A stretch of DNA of 64,000 nt from NCBI RefSeq assembly GCF_003096675.1, contig NZ_QEKW01000002.1:124001-188000 (forward strand). Reading direction: 5' to 3'. Every line of letters begins with the position of its first letter. Within the stretch, counting starts at the first letter, position 1. The notes beneath the pieces were generated by a model. The model searched no databases. It was not told the origin of the DNA and was given only the letters and a program-made list of their open reading frames with translations. The translations under genes and the position numbers were made by a program. Below are positions 6,701 through 48,333 of this stretch, piece by piece. This stretch comes from Actinomycetospora cinnamomea (GTDB lineage Bacteria; Actinomycetota; Actinomycetes; Mycobacteriales; Pseudonocardiaceae).

Positions 6701-7810
6701 GTGCGCGTGCCCGAGCCGGTCGCCGCGGTCCGCCGGGCGGTGCGCGAGGCCCTGGCCGCCCACCCCGGCGCCCGCACTGACGCGACGAACGCGCCGTTCG
6801 CTGCTCCTACGCGCACGAACGGCGCGTTCGTGTCACCGCGCCGGCTGCTCGTCGCCTGCTCCGGCGGCGCCGACTCCGTGGCGCTGGCGGCGGCCGCCGT
6901 GCACGTCGTGCCCGGGCGGGTGCACGGGGTGGTCGTCGACCACGGGCTGCAGGACGGCTCGGGGGCGCAGGCCGCGCGGACGGCGGCGCTGCTGCGCGAG
7001 CTGGGCGCGTCGGCCGAGGTCGTGCCCGTGGACGTCGGGACCGCGGGCGGGCCGGAGGCGGCGGCACGCTCCGCGCGGTACGCGGCGCTGCGGGCCGCGT
7101 CGCGGGCCCACGGCTCGACCCACGGCGGGGCGCCGGTGCTCCTCGGGCACACGCTCGACGACCAGGCCGAGACCGTGCTGCTGGGCCTGGCGCGCGGGTC
7201 GGGGGCGCGCTCGCTCGCGGGCATGGCCGTGTGGGACCCGCCGTGGTGCCGGCCCCTGCTCGGCGTGCGGCGGACGACCACCCGCGCCGCCTGCGGGGCC
7301 GCGGGCCTCGAGGTCTGGGACGACCCCCACAACGACGACCCCCGCTACACCCGCGTGCGGCTGCGCCACGAGGTGCTGCCGCGGCTCGAGGAGATCCTCG
7401 CCGGCGGGGTCGCGCCGGCCCTGGCCCGCACCGCCGCGCAGCTCGCCGACGACGACGCGGCGCTCGCGACCTGGGCCGACGCCAGGCGCGGCGCGCTGGT
7501 CGACGCCGACGGGTCGCTCGACGCCGCGAGCCTGCGGGCCGACCCGTCCGCCGTCCGGCGCCGTGTGCTGCGCGTGTGGCTGGCCGACGCCGGGGTGGCC
7601 GAGCTCACCGACGCCCATGTCCGTGCGGTCGACGGCCTCGTGGCCGCGTGGCGCGGGCAGGGAGCACCCCCACTGCCCGGCGGGTTGGAGGTGGTCCGGG
7701 CGCATGGCAGGCTGCGTGTGCTCGCCGCCCCGGTTCGCGCGCGCGGCGCAGCGGGGTCGGTGCACCGGGAGGCACCGGCTCCACCACCCCCCACGCCCGA
7801 GACCCCGTGA
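6701..7810 (+). CDS. tilS: tRNA(Ile)-lysidine synthase
   Basis: A 369-aa N-type ATP pyrophosphatase that converts cytidine 34 of tRNA-Ile(CAU) to lysidine so that it reads AUA. The PP-loop SGGADS is followed by the family pattern [20 protein letters not shown] and [10 protein letters not shown]. The C-terminal part is short, as in other actinobacterial TilS. Residues about 27-47 ([20 protein letters not shown]) are not part of the fold and are encoded by a palindromic REP-like element at 6785-6831. GTG at 6701 or 6707 could be the start. It abuts hpt, whose alternative GTG overlaps the tilS stop, the classic tilS-hpt arrangement. Confidence 0.93.
6785..6831. repeat. Palindromic REP-like element inside tilS
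   Basis: ACGAACGCGCCGTTCG (6785-6800) and CGAACGGCGCGTTCGT (6816-6831) are perfect 16-bp inverted repeats around a short loop. The element lies in frame in the tilS N-terminal region. Bases 6786-6819 match 48289-48322 at 29 of 34 positions, so this is a dispersed family. Confidence 0.75.
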
Positions 7811-12807: not shown

Positions 12808-12932
12808 GAGCGAGGGACGCCCTGGGTGCGTGGCACGCAGGGGGGGTGACCCTCGCTGCGCGGGGTCGCGCGGGGCTGCCGGAGCGAGGGACGCCCTGGG
12901 TGCGTGGCACGCAGCGGGGGTGACCCTCGCTC
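12808..12932. repeat. Two tandem copies of a palindromic intergenic repeat (family 1)
   Basis: Copies begin at 12808 and 12882 (74-bp spacing) and are almost identical. Each has outer arms AGCGAGGG/CCCTCGCT and an inner stem TGCGTGGCACGCA. Related elements lie at 22779-22830, 22865-22916 and 30075-30119. They fill most of the 179-bp gap and may act as terminators. Confidence 0.7.
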
Positions 12933-21534: not shown

Positions 21535-22767
21535 GTGATCGCCCCTCCGGTCCGCCTGGCGCCGCAGCAGCGCCGGACCTTCGTCTGGCCCCTGGTCGGC
21601 CTCTCGGTGCTCGGCCTGTGCGGGCTGCTGACCCTGGGCCTGGCGAGCACCGAGATCGGCGTCGTCGGCGTCGTGGTCGGCGTGGTCCTCGCGCTGCTGC
21701 CCGTCGCGCCGGTGGTGGCCGCCTTCCTGTGGATCGACCGGTTCGAGCCCGAGCCGCCGCGCCTGCTGCTCGCGGCGTTCCTGTGGGGCGCGGGCCTGTC
21801 GGCGCTGGTCGCGGTGGTCATCAACTCCAGCGCGGTCATCGCCGCGGAGCTGCTGCTCGGCCGCGGCCAGGGCGACCTGGTCGGCGCGGTGATCTCGGCG
21901 CCGCTGGTCGAGGAGTTCGTCAAGGGCGCGTTCGTCGTCGGCCTGCTGCTCGTGCGGCGCCGCGAGTTCGACGGCGTCGTCGACGGCGTCGTCTACGCCG
22001 GCATCACCGCGGCGGGCTTCGCCTTCACCGAGAACATCATCTACTTCGGCCGGGCCTTCACCGAGGCCGAGGGCGCGCCCGCGACGGCCGTGGTCGCGAC
22101 GTTCGTGCTGCGCGGCGTGCTCTCCCCGTTCGCGCATCCGCTGTTCACGGCGATGATCGGCATCGGGGTCGGCATCGCCGCCGGCGCCCGCTCGCGCGTC
22201 GTCGGCACCCTCGCCGTGCTGGGTGGTTACGTGCTCGCCGTCGTCCTCCACGCGCTGTGGAACTCCTCGACGCAGCTCGGCGCCGGGTTCTTCGGCGTCT
22301 ACATCCTGATCATGGTGCCGCTCTTCGCCGGGATGATCGGTCTCGTGGTGTGGCAGCGCCGTCGCGAGCGCGACGTGCTCGCCCGCCAGATGCCCGGCTT
22401 CGCCGCGGCGGGCTGGATCGCGCCGAGCGAGGTCGCGCTGCTCTCGAGCCTCACCGGCCGGCGGAAGTGGCGGGCCGCGGTGGCGCGACGCGCCGGACCC
22501 GCCGCCGCCCGGGCCGTCGAGGACTATCAGCACGCCGTCACCGAGCTCGCCTTCCTGCGCGCCCGCGCCGAGCGCGGGGCCCTGCCGCCCCGCGCCGACT
22601 GGCACGCCGAGCTCCTCGACGCCGTGGTGCGCACCCGCCTCGCCGCGGTGAACGCCCCCGGGGTGCAGGGTCCCGCCGGGCCGCCCGGCGCCGGCGGCCC
22701 GCCGCCGTCGTGGCCCGGCGCCGCGCCCCACCCCGGCCCGCCCGCGCCGCCGCGCCACGGCGGGTGA
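21535..22767 (+). CDS. PrsW family intramembrane metalloprotease
   Basis: A 410-aa polytopic protein with about eight TMs. PrsW glutamyl/zinc motifs are visible: APLVEEFVKGAF (EExxK), AGFAFTENIIYF (FxxxEN) and the His residues of FAHPLFTAMIGIG and VLHALWN. Bacillus PrsW cleaves an anti-sigma factor; the substrate here is not known. After the last TM a cytoplasmic domain (about 290-390) and a Gly/Pro tail follow. A start further upstream in the same frame would lie inside the preceding gene. Confidence 0.92.
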   Translation: MIAPPVRLAPQQRRTFVWPLVGLSVLGLCGLLTLGLASTEIGVVGVVVGVVLALLPVAPVVAAFLWIDRFEPEPPRLLLAAFLWGAGLSALVAVVINSSAVIAAELLLGRGQGDLVGAVISAPLVEEFVKGAFVVGLLLVRRREFDGVVDGVVYAGITAAGFAFTENIIYFGRAFTEAEGAPATAVVATFVLRGVLSPFAHPLFTAMIGIGVGIAAGARSRVVGTLAVLGGYVLAVVLHALWNSSTQLGAGFFGVYILIMVPLFAGMIGLVVWQRRRERDVLARQMPGFAAAGWIAPSEVALLSSLTGRRKWRAAVARRAGPAAARAVEDYQHAVTELAFLRARAERGALPPRADWHAELLDAVVRTRLAAVNAPGVQGPAGPPGAGGPPPSWPGAAPHPGPPAPPRHGG

Positions 22768-22778
22768 CCGGCCCGTGG

Positions 22779-22830
22779 GAGCGAGGGACGCCCCCGCTGC
22801 GTCGTACGCAGCCAGGGACGCCCTCGCTGC
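22779..22830. repeat. Palindromic intergenic repeat, family 1, copy 3
   Basis: It has outer arms around GCGAGGGACGCC and CCTCGC, and an inner stem GCTGCGT/ACGCAGC. It begins 12 bp after the PrsW gene and is nearly identical to the copy at 22865. Confidence 0.7.
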
Positions 22831-22864
22831 GACCACCCCCGCGCCGCAACCGCGTGACCCGTGG

Positions 22865-22916
22865 GAGCGAGGGACGCCCCCGCTGCGTCGTACGCAGCCA
22901 GGGGCGCCCTCGCTGC
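22865..22916. repeat. Palindromic intergenic repeat, family 1, copy 4
   Basis: Same structure as the copy at 22779, offset by 86 bp and differing at one base. The intervening sequence is also partly repeated (GACCACCCC and CGTGACCCGTGGGA). Together the two copies fill the first half of the 301-bp gap before the DUF2520 gene. Confidence 0.7.
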
Positions 22917-22995
22917 GACCACCCCGCGCCACGCCGGGTCGCCGCCGTACCGCGTGAACCCGCTCACCGCCGCCACCGGGGGCGCAACGGGCGGT

Positions 22996-23001
22996 TACCG
23001 T
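22996..23001 (+). promoter_or_regulatory. Candidate -10 box (TACCGT) for the DUF2520-panC-panD-coaX operon
   Basis: TACCGT would give transcription from about 23008 and a leader of about 60 nt before GTG 23069. This argues against the earlier in-frame GTG codons at 23000-23005. Confidence 0.35.
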
Positions 23002-23068
23002 GGTGTGCAGTGATCGTCCGGTACCCGCGGGAGCGGGACGGGAACGAGCCGAACGAGTGAGGTGGCGC

Positions 23069-24037
23069 GTGGGCACCGACGCCGACGGGGGCGTCGGGCG
23101 GTGGGAGCAGCCCGCCGCTCCGACCCCGACTCCTCGTGAGGGCTCGCGGCTCGCCGTCGGCGTGGTCTCCGCCGGGCGGGTCGGCGCGGTGCTGGGCGCC
23201 GCGCTCGCGAACGCCGGGCACACCGTCGTCGCCGCCTCCGCGGTCTCCCGCGCCTCGCGTGCCCGCGCCGAGGCCCTGCTGCCCGGCGCGGAGATCCTCC
23301 CGCCCGACGAGGTCGTCCGTCGCGCCGACCTCGCGCTGCTCGCCGTGCCGGACGACGTGCTCCCCGGCCTGGTCCGCGGGCTCGCCGCGTCGGACTGCCT
23401 GCGGCCCGGCCAGATCGTGGTGCACACCTGCGGTGCGGCCGGGGTCGGCGTGCTCGCCCCGGCCGCCGAGCACGACGTCCTCCCGATCGCCCTGCACCCG
23501 GCCATGACGATCACCGGGCGCGCCGAGGACGTCACGCGGCTGACCGGTGCGTGCGTGGGTGTCACCGGGCCCGAGGGGCCGAGGGAGGACGCCGAGGCGG
23601 CCTGGCTCGTGGGCGAGGCGCTGGTGGTCGAGATGGGCGCCGAGCCCGTGCGCATCCCCGAGGACGCCCGCCCGCTGTACCACGCCGCGCTCGCCCACGG
23701 CGCCAACCACCTGGTCACGCTCGTGCGGGAGGCCGCCGACCTGCTGCGCGGCGCCGGCATCGAGCCCGCCGAGCGGGTGCTCGCCCCGCTGTTGTCCGCG
23801 GCGCTGGACAACGCGCTGCGCCACGGCGACCGGGCGCTGACCGGTCCCGTGGTCCGCGGCGACGCCGGCACCGTGGCGACCCACCTGCACCACCTGGACG
23901 ACCGTGCCCCCGACGCGGCCCCCCTCTACCGGGCCCTGGCCCGGCGCACCGCCGAGCGCGCCCGCGCCGGCGGCCTGCTCGCCCCGGCCGCCGCGGACGA
24001 CGTGGCGACCGCCCTCGCCGAGAGGCCCCGCCCGTGA
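23069..24037 (+). CDS. Rossmann-like and DUF2520 domain protein
   Basis: A 322-aa protein. A Rossmann dinucleotide-binding domain (about 28-155) starts with [24 protein letters not shown], and a helical DUF2520 domain (about 165-310) follows with [21 protein letters not shown]. The fold resembles 6-phosphogluconate dehydrogenase-like oxidoreductases. It is consistently encoded just before panC in actinobacteria (Rv3603c position), so a role in pantothenate supply is likely but its reaction is not assigned here. GTG 23069 has GAGG 6 nt upstream. It overlaps panC by 4 bp. Confidence 0.85.
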
Positions 24038-33704: not shown

Positions 33705-36242
33705 ATGTTCGAGAGGTTCACCGACCGCGCGAGGCGGGTGGTCGTCCTGGCCCAGGAAGAGGCCAGGATGCTCAACCACAACTACATCGGTACCGAGCAC
33801 ATCCTGCTCGGACTGATCCACGAGGGCGAGGGCGTCGCCGCCAAGGCGCTGGAGTCCCTGGGCATCGCCCTCGAGGGCGTGCGCCAGCAGGTCGAGGAGA
33901 TCATCGGCCAGGGCCAGCAGGCGCCGAGCGGCCACATCCCGTTCACCCCGCGCGCCAAGAAGGTTCTGGAGCTGTCGCTGCGCGAGGCGCTGCAGCTCGG
34001 GCACAACTACATCGGCACCGAGCACATCCTGCTCGGGCTCATCCGCGAGGGCGAGGGCGTCGCCGCCCAGGTGCTCGTCAAGCTGGGCGCGGACCTCAAC
34101 CGTGTGCGCCAGCAGGTGCTGCAGCTGCTCTCGGGCTACCAGGGCAAGGAGCCCGCGGAGTCCGGCAGCCAGCGCGGCGAGGGCACCCCGTCGTCCTCCC
34201 TGGTGCTCGACCAGTTCGGTCGCAACCTCACCCAGTCGGCCCGCGAGGGCAAGCTGGACCCGGTCATCGGCCGGGAGAAGGAGATCGAGCGGGTCATGCA
34301 GGTCCTGTCCCGCAGGACCAAGAACAACCCGGTCCTCATCGGCGAGCCCGGCGTCGGCAAGACCGCCGTCGTCGAGGGCCTCGGGCAGGCCATCGTCAAG
34401 GGCGAGGTCCCCGAGACGCTGAAGGACAAGCAGCTCTACACCCTCGACCTCGGGTCGCTCGTGGCGGGCTCGCGCTACCGCGGTGACTTCGAGGAGCGCC
34501 TCAAGAAGGTGCTCAAGGAGATCCGCACCCGCGGCGACATCATCCTGTTCATCGACGAGCTCCACACGCTCGTCGGCGCGGGTGCCGCCGAGGGCGCGAT
34601 CGACGCCGCGTCGATCCTCAAGCCGATGCTGGCCCGCGGCGAGCTGCAGACCATCGGCGCGACCACGCTCGACGAGTACCGCAAGCACGTCGAGAAGGAC
34701 GCCGCGCTCGAGCGCCGCTTCCAGCCGATCCAGGTCGGCGAGCCCTCGGTGGCCCACTCCATCGAGATCCTCAAGGGGCTGCGCGACCGCTACGAGGCGC
34801 ACCACCGCGTCTCGATCACCGACCCAGCGCTGGTCGCGGCGGCCACCCTGGCCGACCGCTACATCAACGACCGGTTCCTGCCGGACAAGGCCATCGACCT
34901 CATCGACGAGGCCGGCGCCCGCATGCGCATCCGCCGCATGACCGCGCCGCCGGACCTGCGCGAGTTCGACGAGAAGATCGCCGACGTCCGCCGGGAGAAG
35001 GAGTCCGCGATCGACGCGCAGGACTTCGAGAAGGCGGCGCGCCTGCGCGATGAGGAGAAGAACCTCATCGGGCAGAAGTCCGAGCGCGAGAAGCAGTGGA
35101 AGTCCGGCGACCTCGACGTCGTCGCGGAGGTCGACGACGAGCAGATCGCCGAGGTGCTGGCCAACTGGACCGGCATCCCGGTGTTCAAGCTCACCGAGGA
35201 GGAGACCACCCGGCTGCTGCGCATGGAGGACGAGCTCCACAAGCGCATCATCGGGCAGGAGGACGCGGTCAAGGCCGTGTCGCAGTCCATGCGGCGCACC
35301 CGCGCCGGCCTCAAGGACCCGAAGCGTCCGTCGGGCTCGTTCATCTTCGCCGGCCCCTCGGGTGTCGGGAAGACCGAGCTCACCAAGGCGCTCGCGGAGT
35401 TCCTCTTCGGCGACGACGACGCGCTCGTCCAGATCGACATGGGCGAGTTCCACGACCGCTACACCGCCTCGCGACTCTTCGGCGCGCCCCCCGGGTACGT
35501 CGGCTACGAGGAGGGCGGCCAGCTCACCGAGAAGGTGCGCCGCAAGCCGTTCTCGGTGGTCCTCTTCGACGAGATCGAGAAGGCCCACTCCGAGGTCTAC
35601 AACACGCTGCTGCAGGTGCTCGAGGACGGTCGCCTGACCGACGGCCAGGGCCGCATCGTCGACTTCAAGAACACGGTCATCGTGTTCACGTCGAACCTCG
35701 GTACGCAGGACATCTCGAAGGCGGTCGGCCTCGGGTTCCAGTCCGGGCAGGACTCGGGCTCGAACTACGAGCGCATGAAGAACAAGGTGACGGACGAGCT
35801 CAAGAAGCACTTCCGCCCCGAGTTCCTCAACCGCATCGACGACATCATCGTGTTCCACCAGCTGACCGAGGCCGAGATCGTTCAGATGGTCGACCTGATG
35901 ATCAGCCGCACCGAGAAGCAGCTGCAGAACAAGGACATGTCGATCGAGCTGACCGACAACGCCAAGAAGCTGCTCGCCCAGCGCGGCTTCGACCCGGTGC
36001 TCGGCGCCCGGCCGCTGCGCCGCACCATCCAGCGCGAGATCGAGGACCAGCTCTCCGAGAAGATCCTGTTCGGGGAGATCGAGTCCGGCCAGATCGTGCT
36101 GGTGGACGTCGAGGGCTGGACGCCCGAGACCGACGACAACGGGGTCACCAAGCCGGCCCCGGAGTCGGCGACCTTCACCTTCCGCGGTGAGGCCAAGCCG
36201 ACCCCGGTGCCCGACACCCCCGAGGTCGCCACGGCGGAGTAG
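33705..36242 (+). CDS. clpC: ATP-dependent Clp protease ATP-binding subunit ClpC
   Basis: An 845-aa Hsp100 unfoldase that feeds proteins to ClpP. Two Clp-N repeats (about 1-145, each with [15 protein letters not shown]-like sequence) are followed by AAA domain D1 with Walker [14 protein letters not shown] and [16 protein letters not shown]/middle domain ([32 protein letters not shown]) comes next, then D2 with [22 protein letters not shown] and sensor [15 protein letters not shown]. Length fits ClpC1 (Rv3596c). ATG 33705 has AGGAG upstream. A hairpin terminator follows. Confidence 0.98.
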
Positions 36243-36273: not shown

Positions 36274-36305
36274 GCCCCGGCCCCTCGCCCGCGAGGGACC
36301 GGGGC
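36274..36305 (+). terminator. clpC terminator hairpin
   Basis: GCCCCGGCCCCTCGC (36274-36288) pairs with GCGAGGGACCGGGGC (36291-36305) with one mismatch and a 2-nt loop, 32 bp after the clpC stop. There is no U-tract, as is common in GC-rich actinobacteria. Confidence 0.65.
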
Positions 36306-36332
36306 TTCGGCGTGTCGGCTGCGGCGTGTCGT

Positions 36333-36385
36333 GTCAGCGGTGGGCCATCGCAGACACTGAGCGTCCGTAACGCCACACGCTCGCG
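36333..36385. repeat. 53-bp terminal inverted repeat, left copy
   Basis: Its reverse complement matches 37492-37544 at 47 of 53 positions. The outer end reads GTCAGCGGTGGGCCATCG. It starts 27 bp after the clpC terminator and lies 21 bp beyond the 3' end of the AbiEi-like gene. Confidence 0.85.
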
Positions 36386-36406
36386 TCGATCTCGAGGTGC
36401 GCGCGT

Positions 36407-37375
36407 CTACGCGGTGCGCGCCTCGTAGCGCACGCGCGGGGGCGGCAGGAGCCGGGCCACGTCCAGGGCGTCGAGGATGTCGGTGTGCAGGCCCCCGGGG
36501 TCGTCGCGTCGTTGGGCAGGGCGTATGCCGAGCACGTGCAGACCGGCGGCCCGGAGACGCCGGTGATACTCGAGGGTCTGCTGCACCTGCTCGGGTGTCG
36601 CGAAGTGGTGCTCCACGGAGTCGACCTGCAAGACGAGGCCGACCTCGCGGACCAGCCCGTCCGCGACGGCGAGGAAGAGACCGTCCTCGTCGTAGATGGT
36701 GGTGTTCCATTCGATCTCGGGCAGGTCGTCCCAAGACAGCCAGAACTCGCGGGTCTCGTACTCCGCGGCGGACCACACGCCCGCCTCGACGGCGATGAGC
36801 ACCCGTCGCGGCGCCGCGGTCCCCTTGCGGGAGCCGCAGTCGAGTTCGGTGCGCAGCGCTTCCGCGAGGACCTGGCGCTTCTGGACGGCCTCCGCGAACA
36901 CCGCCGCGATCTCGGTCAGGTCCTTCGTCCGGCGGGCGCCGTCGGTCAGGCACCGCACGAGTGGTGCGACGGCCAGGCCGTCGCGGACGATCGCGCGCGG
37001 GAGGCGCCGGGTGCGCTCGACGGTGATGGTGGGCGTGCTCAGCACGCTCCGGTCCCAGCTGATGAGGACGTGCACGGACTCCGGGACCGCGCCGCGCCGC
37101 AGGCCGTAGTGCCGGGCGCCACCCCAACCGGTGAGCACGGCGCCGTCGCCCGCGTAGACGAGAGCCGCGATCTCGAGCTGGCGCCGTGTCGGCTCGCCGT
37201 TGGACAACAGGAAGGTGGCGGGCGCGAGCAGGGTCCACGGGCCGTCCTCCTGGGTGCGCCGGTAGGCGGTCCGCTCGGGAACGCCGAGGGCCACGAGGTC
37301 GTCGATGGAGATGACGCCTTCGTGACTCGCAGCCCACAGCCGCTCGCGTTCCTTCGCCCACTGCCCTCGTCGCAT
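36407..37375 (-). CDS. AbiEi-type antitoxin / winged-helix regulator, orphan
   Basis: A 322-aa protein. The N-terminal helix-turn-helix (LWAASHEGVISIDDLVALGVPERTAYRRTQEDG) and the following AbiEi_4-like region (PATFLLSNGEPTRRQLEIAALVYAGDGAVLTGWGGARHYGL) fit the type IV antitoxin family. The C-terminal half (about 190-300: TEIEWNTTIYDEDGLFLAVAD-like) looks DUF559/endonuclease-like in layout but lacks an obvious catalytic set. No AbiEii nucleotidyltransferase toxin is adjacent. The gene is enclosed by 53-bp inverted repeats at 36333-36385 and 37492-37544. ATG 37375. Function as a true antitoxin is doubtful without a toxin. Confidence 0.7.
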   Translation of the reverse strand: MRRGQWAKERERLWAASHEGVISIDDLVALGVPERTAYRRTQEDGPWTLLAPATFLLSNGEPTRRQLEIAALVYAGDGAVLTGWGGARHYGLRRGAVPESVHVLISWDRSVLSTPTITVERTRRLPRAIVRDGLAVAPLVRCLTDGARRTKDLTEIAAVFAEAVQKRQVLAEALRTELDCGSRKGTAAPRRVLIAVEAGVWSAAEYETREFWLSWDDLPEIEWNTTIYDEDGLFLAVADGLVREVGLVLQVDSVEHHFATPEQVQQTLEYHRRLRAAGLHVLGIRPAQRRDDPGGLHTDILDALDVARLLPPPRVRYEARTA

Positions 37376-37432
37376 GCATTTGAGAGTCGCGCGTGCCGCT
37401 CAGCCGCGAGGTGCTCTTCGAGGCATCTGTGG

Positions 37433-37470
37433 ACAACGTGCCCGACGCTGACTCTCGGTGCGCACGTTGT
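37433..37470. promoter_or_regulatory. Inverted repeat upstream of the AbiEi-like gene
   Basis: ACAACGTGC (37433-37441) and GCACGTTGT (37462-37470) are perfect 9-bp inverted arms, 58-95 bp upstream of the gene start. It could be an autoregulatory operator, as AbiEi proteins bind inverted repeats in their own promoters. Confidence 0.4.
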
Positions 37471-37491
37471 GGACGAGTTGCCGCGTCCACG

Positions 37492-37544
37492 CGCGAGCGT
37501 GTGGCATTACGGACACTGGGCGTCAGCGATGGCCCACCGCTGAC
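37492..37544. repeat. 53-bp terminal inverted repeat, right copy
   Basis: It matches the reverse complement of 36333-36385 at 47 of 53 positions. Its outer 23 bp also form an internal hairpin GTCAGCG/CGCTGAC. No target-site duplication was found outside the pair. Confidence 0.85.
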
Positions 37545-37577
37545 AACATCGCTGGCCCGTCTGAGGCTGATTGTGGC

Positions 37578-37583: not shown

Positions 37584-37591
37584 GCGTGAGC

Positions 37592-38689
37592 ATGGCGGAG
37601 GTGCGGGCGCTGGACGAGGGCCTGGTGGCCGCGTGGGATCGGCTCGCGTTGGCCACCGGAGCGCCGGTGTTCGCGCGGCCGGGGTGGTTGCGCGCCTGGG
37701 CCGGGGCGTTCGGGAAGGCGTCGGCGCTGCGGGCGCTGACGGTGCACCGCGACGGCGAGCTGGCGGGCGTCCTGCCCGTCGTCACCGCTCCGCTGGGCGT
37801 GCACACGCCCGTGAACTCCGAGACCGCGCTCATCGCGCCCGTCCTCGCCGACGCCGACGCCGCCGGGGAGCTCGCCGAGCATCTGCTCGCGCGCCGCTCC
37901 GTGGTCGATCTCGACGCCGTACTCGCCGACGACCCGCTCACCGCCGCGCTCCGGGACGCCGCCGGGCGCGGGCGCGTCCCGGTGCTCGAGACCCACCGGT
38001 GCTCGTCGCCCTACGTCGCGACCGTCGGCGATCCGGCCGACTTCCTCCAGCGTCTTTCGAGGAACCGCCGCCACGGGCTCAAGCGACTGCGCAATCGCCT
38101 GCGCGACGCCGGCGAGGTCACGTTCGAGGTGTGCGACGGCGGCGACGGCGTCCTCGAGGAACGGCTGCGGGAGGGCCTGGCGCTCGAGGCGCGGGAGTGG
38201 AAGCTCGCCGCCGGCTCGGCGATCCTCTCGAGCCCGGCGCGCGTCGCGTTCTACACCGCGGGCGCGCGGTGGGCCGCCGAGGTCGGCGTGCTGCGGCTGG
38301 CGTTCCTGCGCGTCGACGGTACGGCGATCGCCTTCGGCTACTGCCTGCAGCAGGGCCGCACCCTGCACTTCCTCAAGCTCGGCATGGACGACGCCCACGC
38401 CAAGCTCGGGCCCGGGGTGCTGCTCACCCAGCACCTGGTCGAGCACGCGTTCGCGGAGCCCGAGGTCGCCGAGCTCGACCTGCTGGGCGAGAACGAGTCG
38501 TACAAGGCCGACTTCGCCACCGGCATCCGCGAGCAGGTCCGCCTGCGCGCCTATCCCACCCCCGGCGTCGGCACCGTGCAGCGCGCGGCGACGGCGCGGG
38601 TCGCCGACCTGCGCGCGGCGGCCGTCGCCCGGCTGTCCGGTCCCACGCGCGAGCGGCTCGTCGCCCTCCGCAACCGCCTGGTGCGCTGA
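37592..38689 (+). CDS. GNAT/FemAB-like acyltransferase (Acetyltransf_6 type)
   Basis: A 365-aa cytoplasmic protein. The conserved core (about 150-330) includes NRRHGLKRLRNRL, the double-GNAT region LRLAFLRVDGTAIAFGYCLQQG and HFLKLGMDDAHAKLGPGVLL, and the closing LDLLGENESYKADFATG. The family modifies cell-surface sugars or cell-wall precursors with acyl or aminoacyl groups (CelD/BcsL-like). It opens a five-gene surface glycan cluster with a second related protein at the other end. Substrate unknown. ATG 37592 follows a -10 box directly. Confidence 0.82.
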   Translation: MAEVRALDEGLVAAWDRLALATGAPVFARPGWLRAWAGAFGKASALRALTVHRDGELAGVLPVVTAPLGVHTPVNSETALIAPVLADADAAGELAEHLLARRSVVDLDAVLADDPLTAALRDAAGRGRVPVLETHRCSSPYVATVGDPADFLQRLSRNRRHGLKRLRNRLRDAGEVTFEVCDGGDGVLEERLREGLALEAREWKLAAGSAILSSPARVAFYTAGARWAAEVGVLRLAFLRVDGTAIAFGYCLQQGRTLHFLKLGMDDAHAKLGPGVLLTQHLVEHAFAEPEVAELDLLGENESYKADFATGIREQVRLRAYPTPGVGTVQRAATARVADLRAAAVARLSGPTRERLVALRNRLVR

Positions 38690-48283: not shown

Positions 48284-48322
48284 GGCAGCGAACGCGCTGT
48301 TCGCTGCCTCTACGCGTCCGAA
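48284..48322. terminator. Bidirectional terminator built from a REP-like element (family 2)
   Basis: GGCAGCGAAC (48284-48293) and GTTCGCTGCC (48299-48308) are perfect 10-bp arms. The element lies in the 60-bp gap between the convergent HTH_42 and sirtuin genes. Bases 48289-48322 match the tilS element (6786-6819) at 29 of 34 positions. Confidence 0.7.
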
Positions 48323-48333
48323 GTCCCCGTTGA

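Follow-up and report, generated by a model that had tools for sequence, protein, structure and literature searches.

In REPIN-RAYT systems, or REPtrons, as described in the portions of PMC3116915 and PMC3733652 available to us, a single-copy gene is flanked by inverted palindromic repeats, a genome holds several repeat families each with its own resident gene, and the REP repeats are dispersed, mostly intergenic, often located at gene 3' ends and found as paired inverted copies. AbiEi proteins, according to the available part of PMC7319586, bind pairs of 23-bp inverted repeats, autoregulate through this binding and, at full length, bend their promoter. We analysed a 64,000-nucleotide stretch of Actinomycetospora cinnamomea (the window; contig NZ_QEKW01000002.1, positions 124,001 to 188,000), in which an AbiEi-type gene lies between inverted repeats. 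The 'orphan antitoxin' gene proves to be the resident of a family of dispersed palindromes, an arrangement that recurs in actinobacteria. The unit is probably REPtron-like, with an AbiEi-winged-helix/Vsr-fold protein, and not a RAYT, recognising its palindromes and spreading or maintaining them. No paper linking AbiEi or DUF559 genes with dispersed palindromes was found among the matches listed in open-licence PubMed Central, and the words Actinobacteria, Mycobacterium and Streptomyces are absent from the main text of PMC3733652.

The gene (36407-37375, minus strand) is an intact open reading frame for 322 aa with an ATG start. An inverted-repeat search placed it between two 54-nt arms that are 89% complementary and 1106 nt apart; the runner-up inverted pairs in the 2-kb stretch around the gene measured 28-29 nt at 72-75%. 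The left arm (36332-36385, plus strand) lies 21 bp from the stop codon and the right arm (37492-37545, minus strand), an inverted second copy of the repeat, 116 bp from the start codon, the TGTCAGCG end pointing outward in both, to the clpC side on the left and to the GNAT side on the right. An earlier note on this DNA had reported the gene within inverted repeats at these distances, and both observations were confirmed; it had also taken the repeats as private to the cassette, which did not hold. Searching the genome with the whole unit returned some forty other places, all matching by the arm only. Thirty-two distinct copies, 30 of them outside the unit, aligned with abrupt ends (TGTCAGCGGTGGGCCATCGC(T/A)GAC....AGTGTCCGTAACGCCACACGCTCG), from which the arm boundaries were taken. 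The pattern had 39 matches in the genome, resident arms included, and the reversed pattern had none. Each arm is one copy of a sharply bounded, dispersed palindromic repeat of ~53 bp, and a cassette private to the gene was rejected on these matches, most of which are solitary. A simple gene finder of the codon-position type placed 24 of the 30 solitary copies between genes (the other six, placed inside genes, may be finder errors); by the same finder, 89% of a 400-kb sample is coding. The TGTCAG end faces a gene 3' end in 17 of the 24 intergenic copies and lies within 20 bp of it in 13 of those 17. Immediately ahead of the repeat, CGGCGTGTCG-like motifs were seen by eye in 4 of the 32 copies (window 36303-36331, L007, L008 and L010).

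The genome holds three further family members, 55%, 38% and 40% identical to the window protein. Each is enclosed by inverted arms of its own that by eye differ from the others (78 nt at 86%; 48-55 nt at 84-92%; multi-copy arms of 49-61 nt at 75-78%). A 400-kb stretch of contig C1 without any of these genes matched the three paralogue arm types at 2, 7 and 7 places, along with 3 for the window type, and the reversed arm sequences gave no match there; the paralogue arms are likewise dispersed repeats. Arm types p3 and p4 are also present in the window. Solitary copies of the repeat type that bounds paralogue L003 (AGCGAACGCGCTGTTCGCTGC...) were noted at 6786-6830 and 48285-48331, and two tandem pairs of the type that bounds paralogue L004 at 12808-12932 and 22774-22917.

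Repeat copy number across the genus correlated with the presence of the gene. In the window, clpC (33705-36242, plus strand) adjoins the gene on the left and a GNAT acetyltransferase gene (37586-38689, plus strand) on the right, with no AbiEii (DUF1814) toxin gene next to it, as the earlier note had stated. Among 18 genomes of the genus, clpC was on hand in 17; G013, 59% complete, was left out for want of a clpC match, although it gave 11 repeat pattern matches. The gene and both arms lie downstream of clpC in 7 of the 17 (G000, which is A. cinnamomea, G002, G004, G007, G008, G009 and G012), and the other 10 showed neither gene nor arm over the first 1.5 kb or so beyond clpC, so that a whole inverted-repeat-bounded unit is present or absent at one locus, a trait of insertion sequences. 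This comparison, proposed by the earlier note, bore out its treatment of gene and arms as one unit. Copy numbers were 25-39 in the seven gene-bearing genomes versus 0, 0, 0, 1, 1, 1, 1, 9, 10 and 20 in the ten without the clpC-side gene (exact Mann-Whitney 5e-5); the counts include resident arms, and diverged copies elsewhere may have been missed because the pattern was built from the arms of gene-bearing genomes. Resident arms vary by lineage (GCGAAGTGGCGTCGC in G004 and G007, GCGAAGTGCCGTCGC in G002, GCGGTGTCGCATCGC in G009, GCGGTGGGCCATCGC in G000), with the TGTCAGCG end and a GAC....AGTGTCCG core largely in common. By eye, copies of the resident's own class made up 34 of 39 in G000, 23 of 36 in G002, 29 of 31 in G004, 34 of 38 in G007, 25 of 27 in G008, 25 of 38 in G012 and, among the matches listed, 16 of 17 in G009, which has 25 in all (the G005 matches are likewise those listed). 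The commonest form in G008 is the resident arm with one base changed. The earlier note had set the occurrence of repeats without the gene against its proposal; such repeats do exist, yet in the genus they track the presence of the gene and its arm class, and the link is therefore stronger than supposed, that of a repeat family with its resident gene.

G005, whose flanks are about 90-97% identical to those of G008, lacks the entire unit and a few adjoining base pairs. A clean pre-insertion site was rejected since these bases are gone as well; the site reads for the same reason as a deletion, and the unit looks to have been lost there. A solitary copy of G008 (C29:175339) and a p3 copy (54072) have left partial remnants in G005, not clean empty sites. 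The G009 unit contains about 0.9 kb of additional DNA. Between the G008 and G005 species a 770-bp segment is inverted (G008 C29 ~127105-127875 versus G005 C10 ~22343-23113; L257-L276), bounded in G005 by inverted copies of another palindrome (GCAGGTGAGCAGAAA...).

A scan of a contig collection with the family alignment yielded 67 loci from named actinobacterial records; several of the genus genomes probably come from strains that are also represented among L111-L122, and the two sets of results overlap. With 500-nt flanks, 40 of 63 scorable loci beat all sliding windows of their own locus (13-86 windows each). With 350-nt flanks and, as the control, neighbouring genes called by the simple codon-position finder, 34 of 62 family genes were enclosed by arms versus 1 of 408 others (Fisher 1.6e-33), five of the 67 loci being left out for too short a flank. 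The share was 30 of 40 in closer relatives (L111-L155) and 4 of 22 in distant ones; L117, the G009 strain, was negative in both tests because the extra DNA separates gene from arm. Chance alone could bring two copies of an abundant repeat to either side of a gene, and by our own estimate it would not be surprising for a 6-Mb genome with about 40 copies to have one pair this close (1.2 kb). However, the same plan is found at the same locus in seven genomes with differing arms, in the four family members of A. cinnamomea and across genera, and on the 34 of 62 versus 1 of 408 chance pairing was rejected; we give it almost no weight. Between genera the arms diverge widely, as judged by eye. In 39 loci chosen for having arms, the median arm length was 57 nt, and in 30 of them at most 5 of 100 shuffles, which keep base composition only, folded as well; further arm copies in these flanks were few, with 8 own-flank matches versus 0 in six random other loci each. 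Upstream of 53 of the 65 family genes examined stands a TGTGGAY/RTCCACA motif, commonly near -59 and -78 to -88, with 77 matches versus 2.7 expected from flanks, about 29-fold (L111-L177 genes). We take this motif to be like a DnaA box; in the window, copies read from the sequence are CTGTGGACAA (37427-37436) and TTGTGGAC (37467-37474), upstream of the gene. The motif may serve as a promoter operator, or it may connect the gene to replication.

Outside resident units, at least seven neighbouring pairs of copies lie less than 2 kb apart, six facing outward like cassette ends, one in tandem and none inward; for these seven pairs, taken by eye among the matches listed, the chance of such a bias is 0.0013 if the four arrangements are assumed equal. 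Two pairs have their copies within about 90 bp and enclose nothing. Outward inverted pairs were also seen around genes labelled by eye as alpha/beta-hydrolase-like, HxlR/MarR-like and NTF2/SnoaL-like; the last is enclosed by outward arms in G004 and in G002 alike (L277, L279), and the class of its left arm differs in G002. Such pairs would suit an unrelated, unseen transposase that spreads the palindromes and carries AbiEi-like genes between two copies as it does others. We regard this as quite improbable, because a passenger would hardly be picked repeatedly by unrelated repeat families, and the four family members of A. cinnamomea sit in four different ones. The single enclosed gene among 408 controls also speaks against it, as does the failure to find a Y1 transposase in the genus, the only transposase family searched. 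The earlier note's non-autonomous cassette driven by a foreign transposase is likewise without support.

Turnover was seen in other genera. The Amycolatopsis arm is a 23+7+23-bp inverted pair. Half-site matches to this element number 161-328 in five of six Amycolatopsis genomes, whereas A. anabasis and four other genera have none. The Pseudonocardia arm is matched 37-93 times in the three genomes where it flanks the gene and 0-1 times in the seven others searched. Twenty A. keratiniphila places were drawn from zero-mismatch rows, and their likeness is therefore partly one of selection; seven were queried at orthologous sites in four other Amycolatopsis, and six were comparable. With both flanks found at these six sites (84-95% identical), the element was missing in 17 of 20 site-genome comparisons, and it or a close variant was present in the remaining 3. 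Of two 138-140-kb contigs from another Amycolatopsis, one has no copy and the other has two places. Between Amycolatopsis species, L124 (5846-7008) on one side and L127 and L129 on the other, the gene runs in opposite directions while its flanks are otherwise collinear, and the unit has therefore been inverted; the gene is about 81% conserved in this comparison and the flanks 85-94%. A long flanking direct repeat was found at one locus (L305). At orthologous Amycolatopsis intergenic sites (L340-L369), the same position is taken by other palindromes (TTAGTCCTCTAAATGCG, GTGAAGGCCTCC..., CCCCAAAGTGGCATTGGG...), as though they used landing sites in common.

The window protein matched AbiEi profiles in a profile search and had no match in NCBIfam; DUF559 and REase_MTES_1575 domains were matched in some homologues. 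Its predicted structure (pLDDT 93.8) matched AbiEi and Vsr-like folds. Going by these matched folds only, the modelled protein combines an AbiEi-antitoxin fold with a Vsr/homing-endonuclease-like domain. The first is common to AbiEi antitoxins of type IV toxin-antitoxin systems (6y8q; Rv2827c, 1zel), and the Vsr-like catalytic fold is common to Vsr endonuclease, the homing endonuclease I-Bth0305I (EDxHD family) and DUF559 proteins. Unlike AbiEi antitoxins, the protein has an extra C-terminal nuclease-like domain, and its gene has repeats on both sides that are dispersed besides, whereas the adjacent AbiEii toxin gene of AbiE systems is lacking. It differs from the Vsr, EDxHD and DUF559 enzymes by the fusion of the nuclease domain to an AbiEi module, and from homing endonucleases in that its gene is placed between dispersed palindromes instead of in an intron or at a single homing site. 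The family alignment (residue positions not mapped onto 3r3p) gives the window protein E205, D239, D252 and H257, and Glu205 and Asp239 are kept in 50 of 51 aligned proteins. At position 250, 47 of the 51 have Glu and the window protein, in contrast also to Vsr/EDxHD enzymes, has Gln; because of this replacement it is perhaps non-cutting and may now only bind DNA.

A regulatory reading would make the protein a DNA-binding repressor of AbiEi type whose nuclease domain has decayed, and the palindromes operators or transcription- or mRNA-end elements, their spread ancient or passive and the nuclease uninvolved. The missing Glu250, the TGTCAG ends at gene 3' ends in 17 of 24 intergenic copies and AbiEi autoregulation via inverted repeats (PMC7319586, in the part available) all agree with it. 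Yet Glu250 is kept in 47 and Glu205 with Asp239 in 50 of the 51 aligned proteins, gene 3' ends are an unexpected place for operators, and both the lineage-specific occupancy in Amycolatopsis and the arms that by eye differ by genus suit a spreading element better. We consider the regulatory reading unlikely, if less so than a foreign transposase.

A REPtron-like unit whose own protein spreads or maintains the palindromes remains our preferred reading. The system has in common with REPtrons, as far as the available portions of PMC3116915 and PMC3733652 describe them, a single-copy gene within inverted palindromes, several repeat families each with a resident gene, and dispersed, mostly intergenic repeats, often at gene 3' ends and in paired inverted copies; at the window locus the gene is flanked by inverted copies of a dispersed palindrome. 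It differs in its protein, an AbiEi fold with a Vsr-like nuclease and not an HUH/Y1 (IS200-like) transposase, and in the consensus of the 32 window-type copies, TGTCAG...CTCG, which by inspection has no GTAG or CGTC tag at the palindrome foot. PF01797 (RAYT/IS200, Y1_Tnp) was found in 0 of the 18 genus genomes, with controls matched in 5 of 14, and a RAYT/IS200 enzyme behind the repeats in the genus was rejected. Because the protein is unrelated to RAYT and no Y1 transposase was found in these genomes, the system is REPtron-like yet no REPtron.

The earlier note's suggestion that the protein recognises the repeats fits an AbiEi-type DNA-binding protein beside palindromes: it would bind its arms, since AbiEi binds paired 23-bp inverted repeats (PMC7319586, available part) and the Amycolatopsis arm has that plan. 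The resident gene would be single-copy for its arm type, and the flanking ~53-bp palindromes would be both operator-like sites and members of the dispersed family. The AbiEi part would bind the palindromic half-site pairs of the cassette ends and of solitary copies alike, and the nuclease part would nick or cut the palindrome, probably while it is folded as a hairpin or cruciform in the course of replication. The short element would then be copied by repair into new intergenic places, and the segment between the arms could be inverted or lost in the process; recombination at the arms, or their cutting, could account for the unit's inversion and loss.

Several observations weigh against this reading. 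The window protein itself lacks Glu250, and some inverted pairs enclose unrelated genes. G017, G005 and G015 keep 20, 10 and 9 copies without the clpC-side gene, and G012 also has 8 copies of the window's class. Below the enclosure cut-off are 28 of 62 family genes, 10 of 40 in closer relatives and 18 of 22 in distant ones. The repeat-rich Amycolatopsis L125 and L127 have, at the gene that was fetched, no matching arm pair, L125 having only an upstream arm of another type and L127 only a downstream arm. Turnover at orthologous sites may be gain or loss and does not reveal its cause. Flanking direct repeats were not in excess (p 0.09-0.86; 17 of 20 Amycolatopsis and 30 Actinomycetospora copies), and a consistent target-site duplication was rejected on this ground. 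The analysis establishes the architecture, its recurrence, the dispersal of the repeats, the correlation between copy number and gene, and the domain folds; recognition of the palindromes and their mobilisation, through binding, cutting and copying by the protein, are what we infer.

In wider terms, we see it as an even call whether actinobacteria have a class of self-spreading palindromes independent of RAYT (an independence assessed among the Actinomycetospora genomes). In such a class, an antitoxin-type DNA-binding module joined to a homing-type nuclease would copy the sites that serve as its operators to other places in the chromosome; each genome would hold several gene/repeat pairs that differ in specificity, and the repeat sequence would be replaced continually. 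The system could explain where short palindromes between actinobacterial genes come from and what a class of 'orphan AbiEi' genes, which profile libraries call antitoxins, does. If the reading is true, REP-like systems would have arisen at least twice with unrelated enzymes, and the gene/repeat pairs of differing specificity would be a ready set for studying how the DNA target of the AbiEi module changes.
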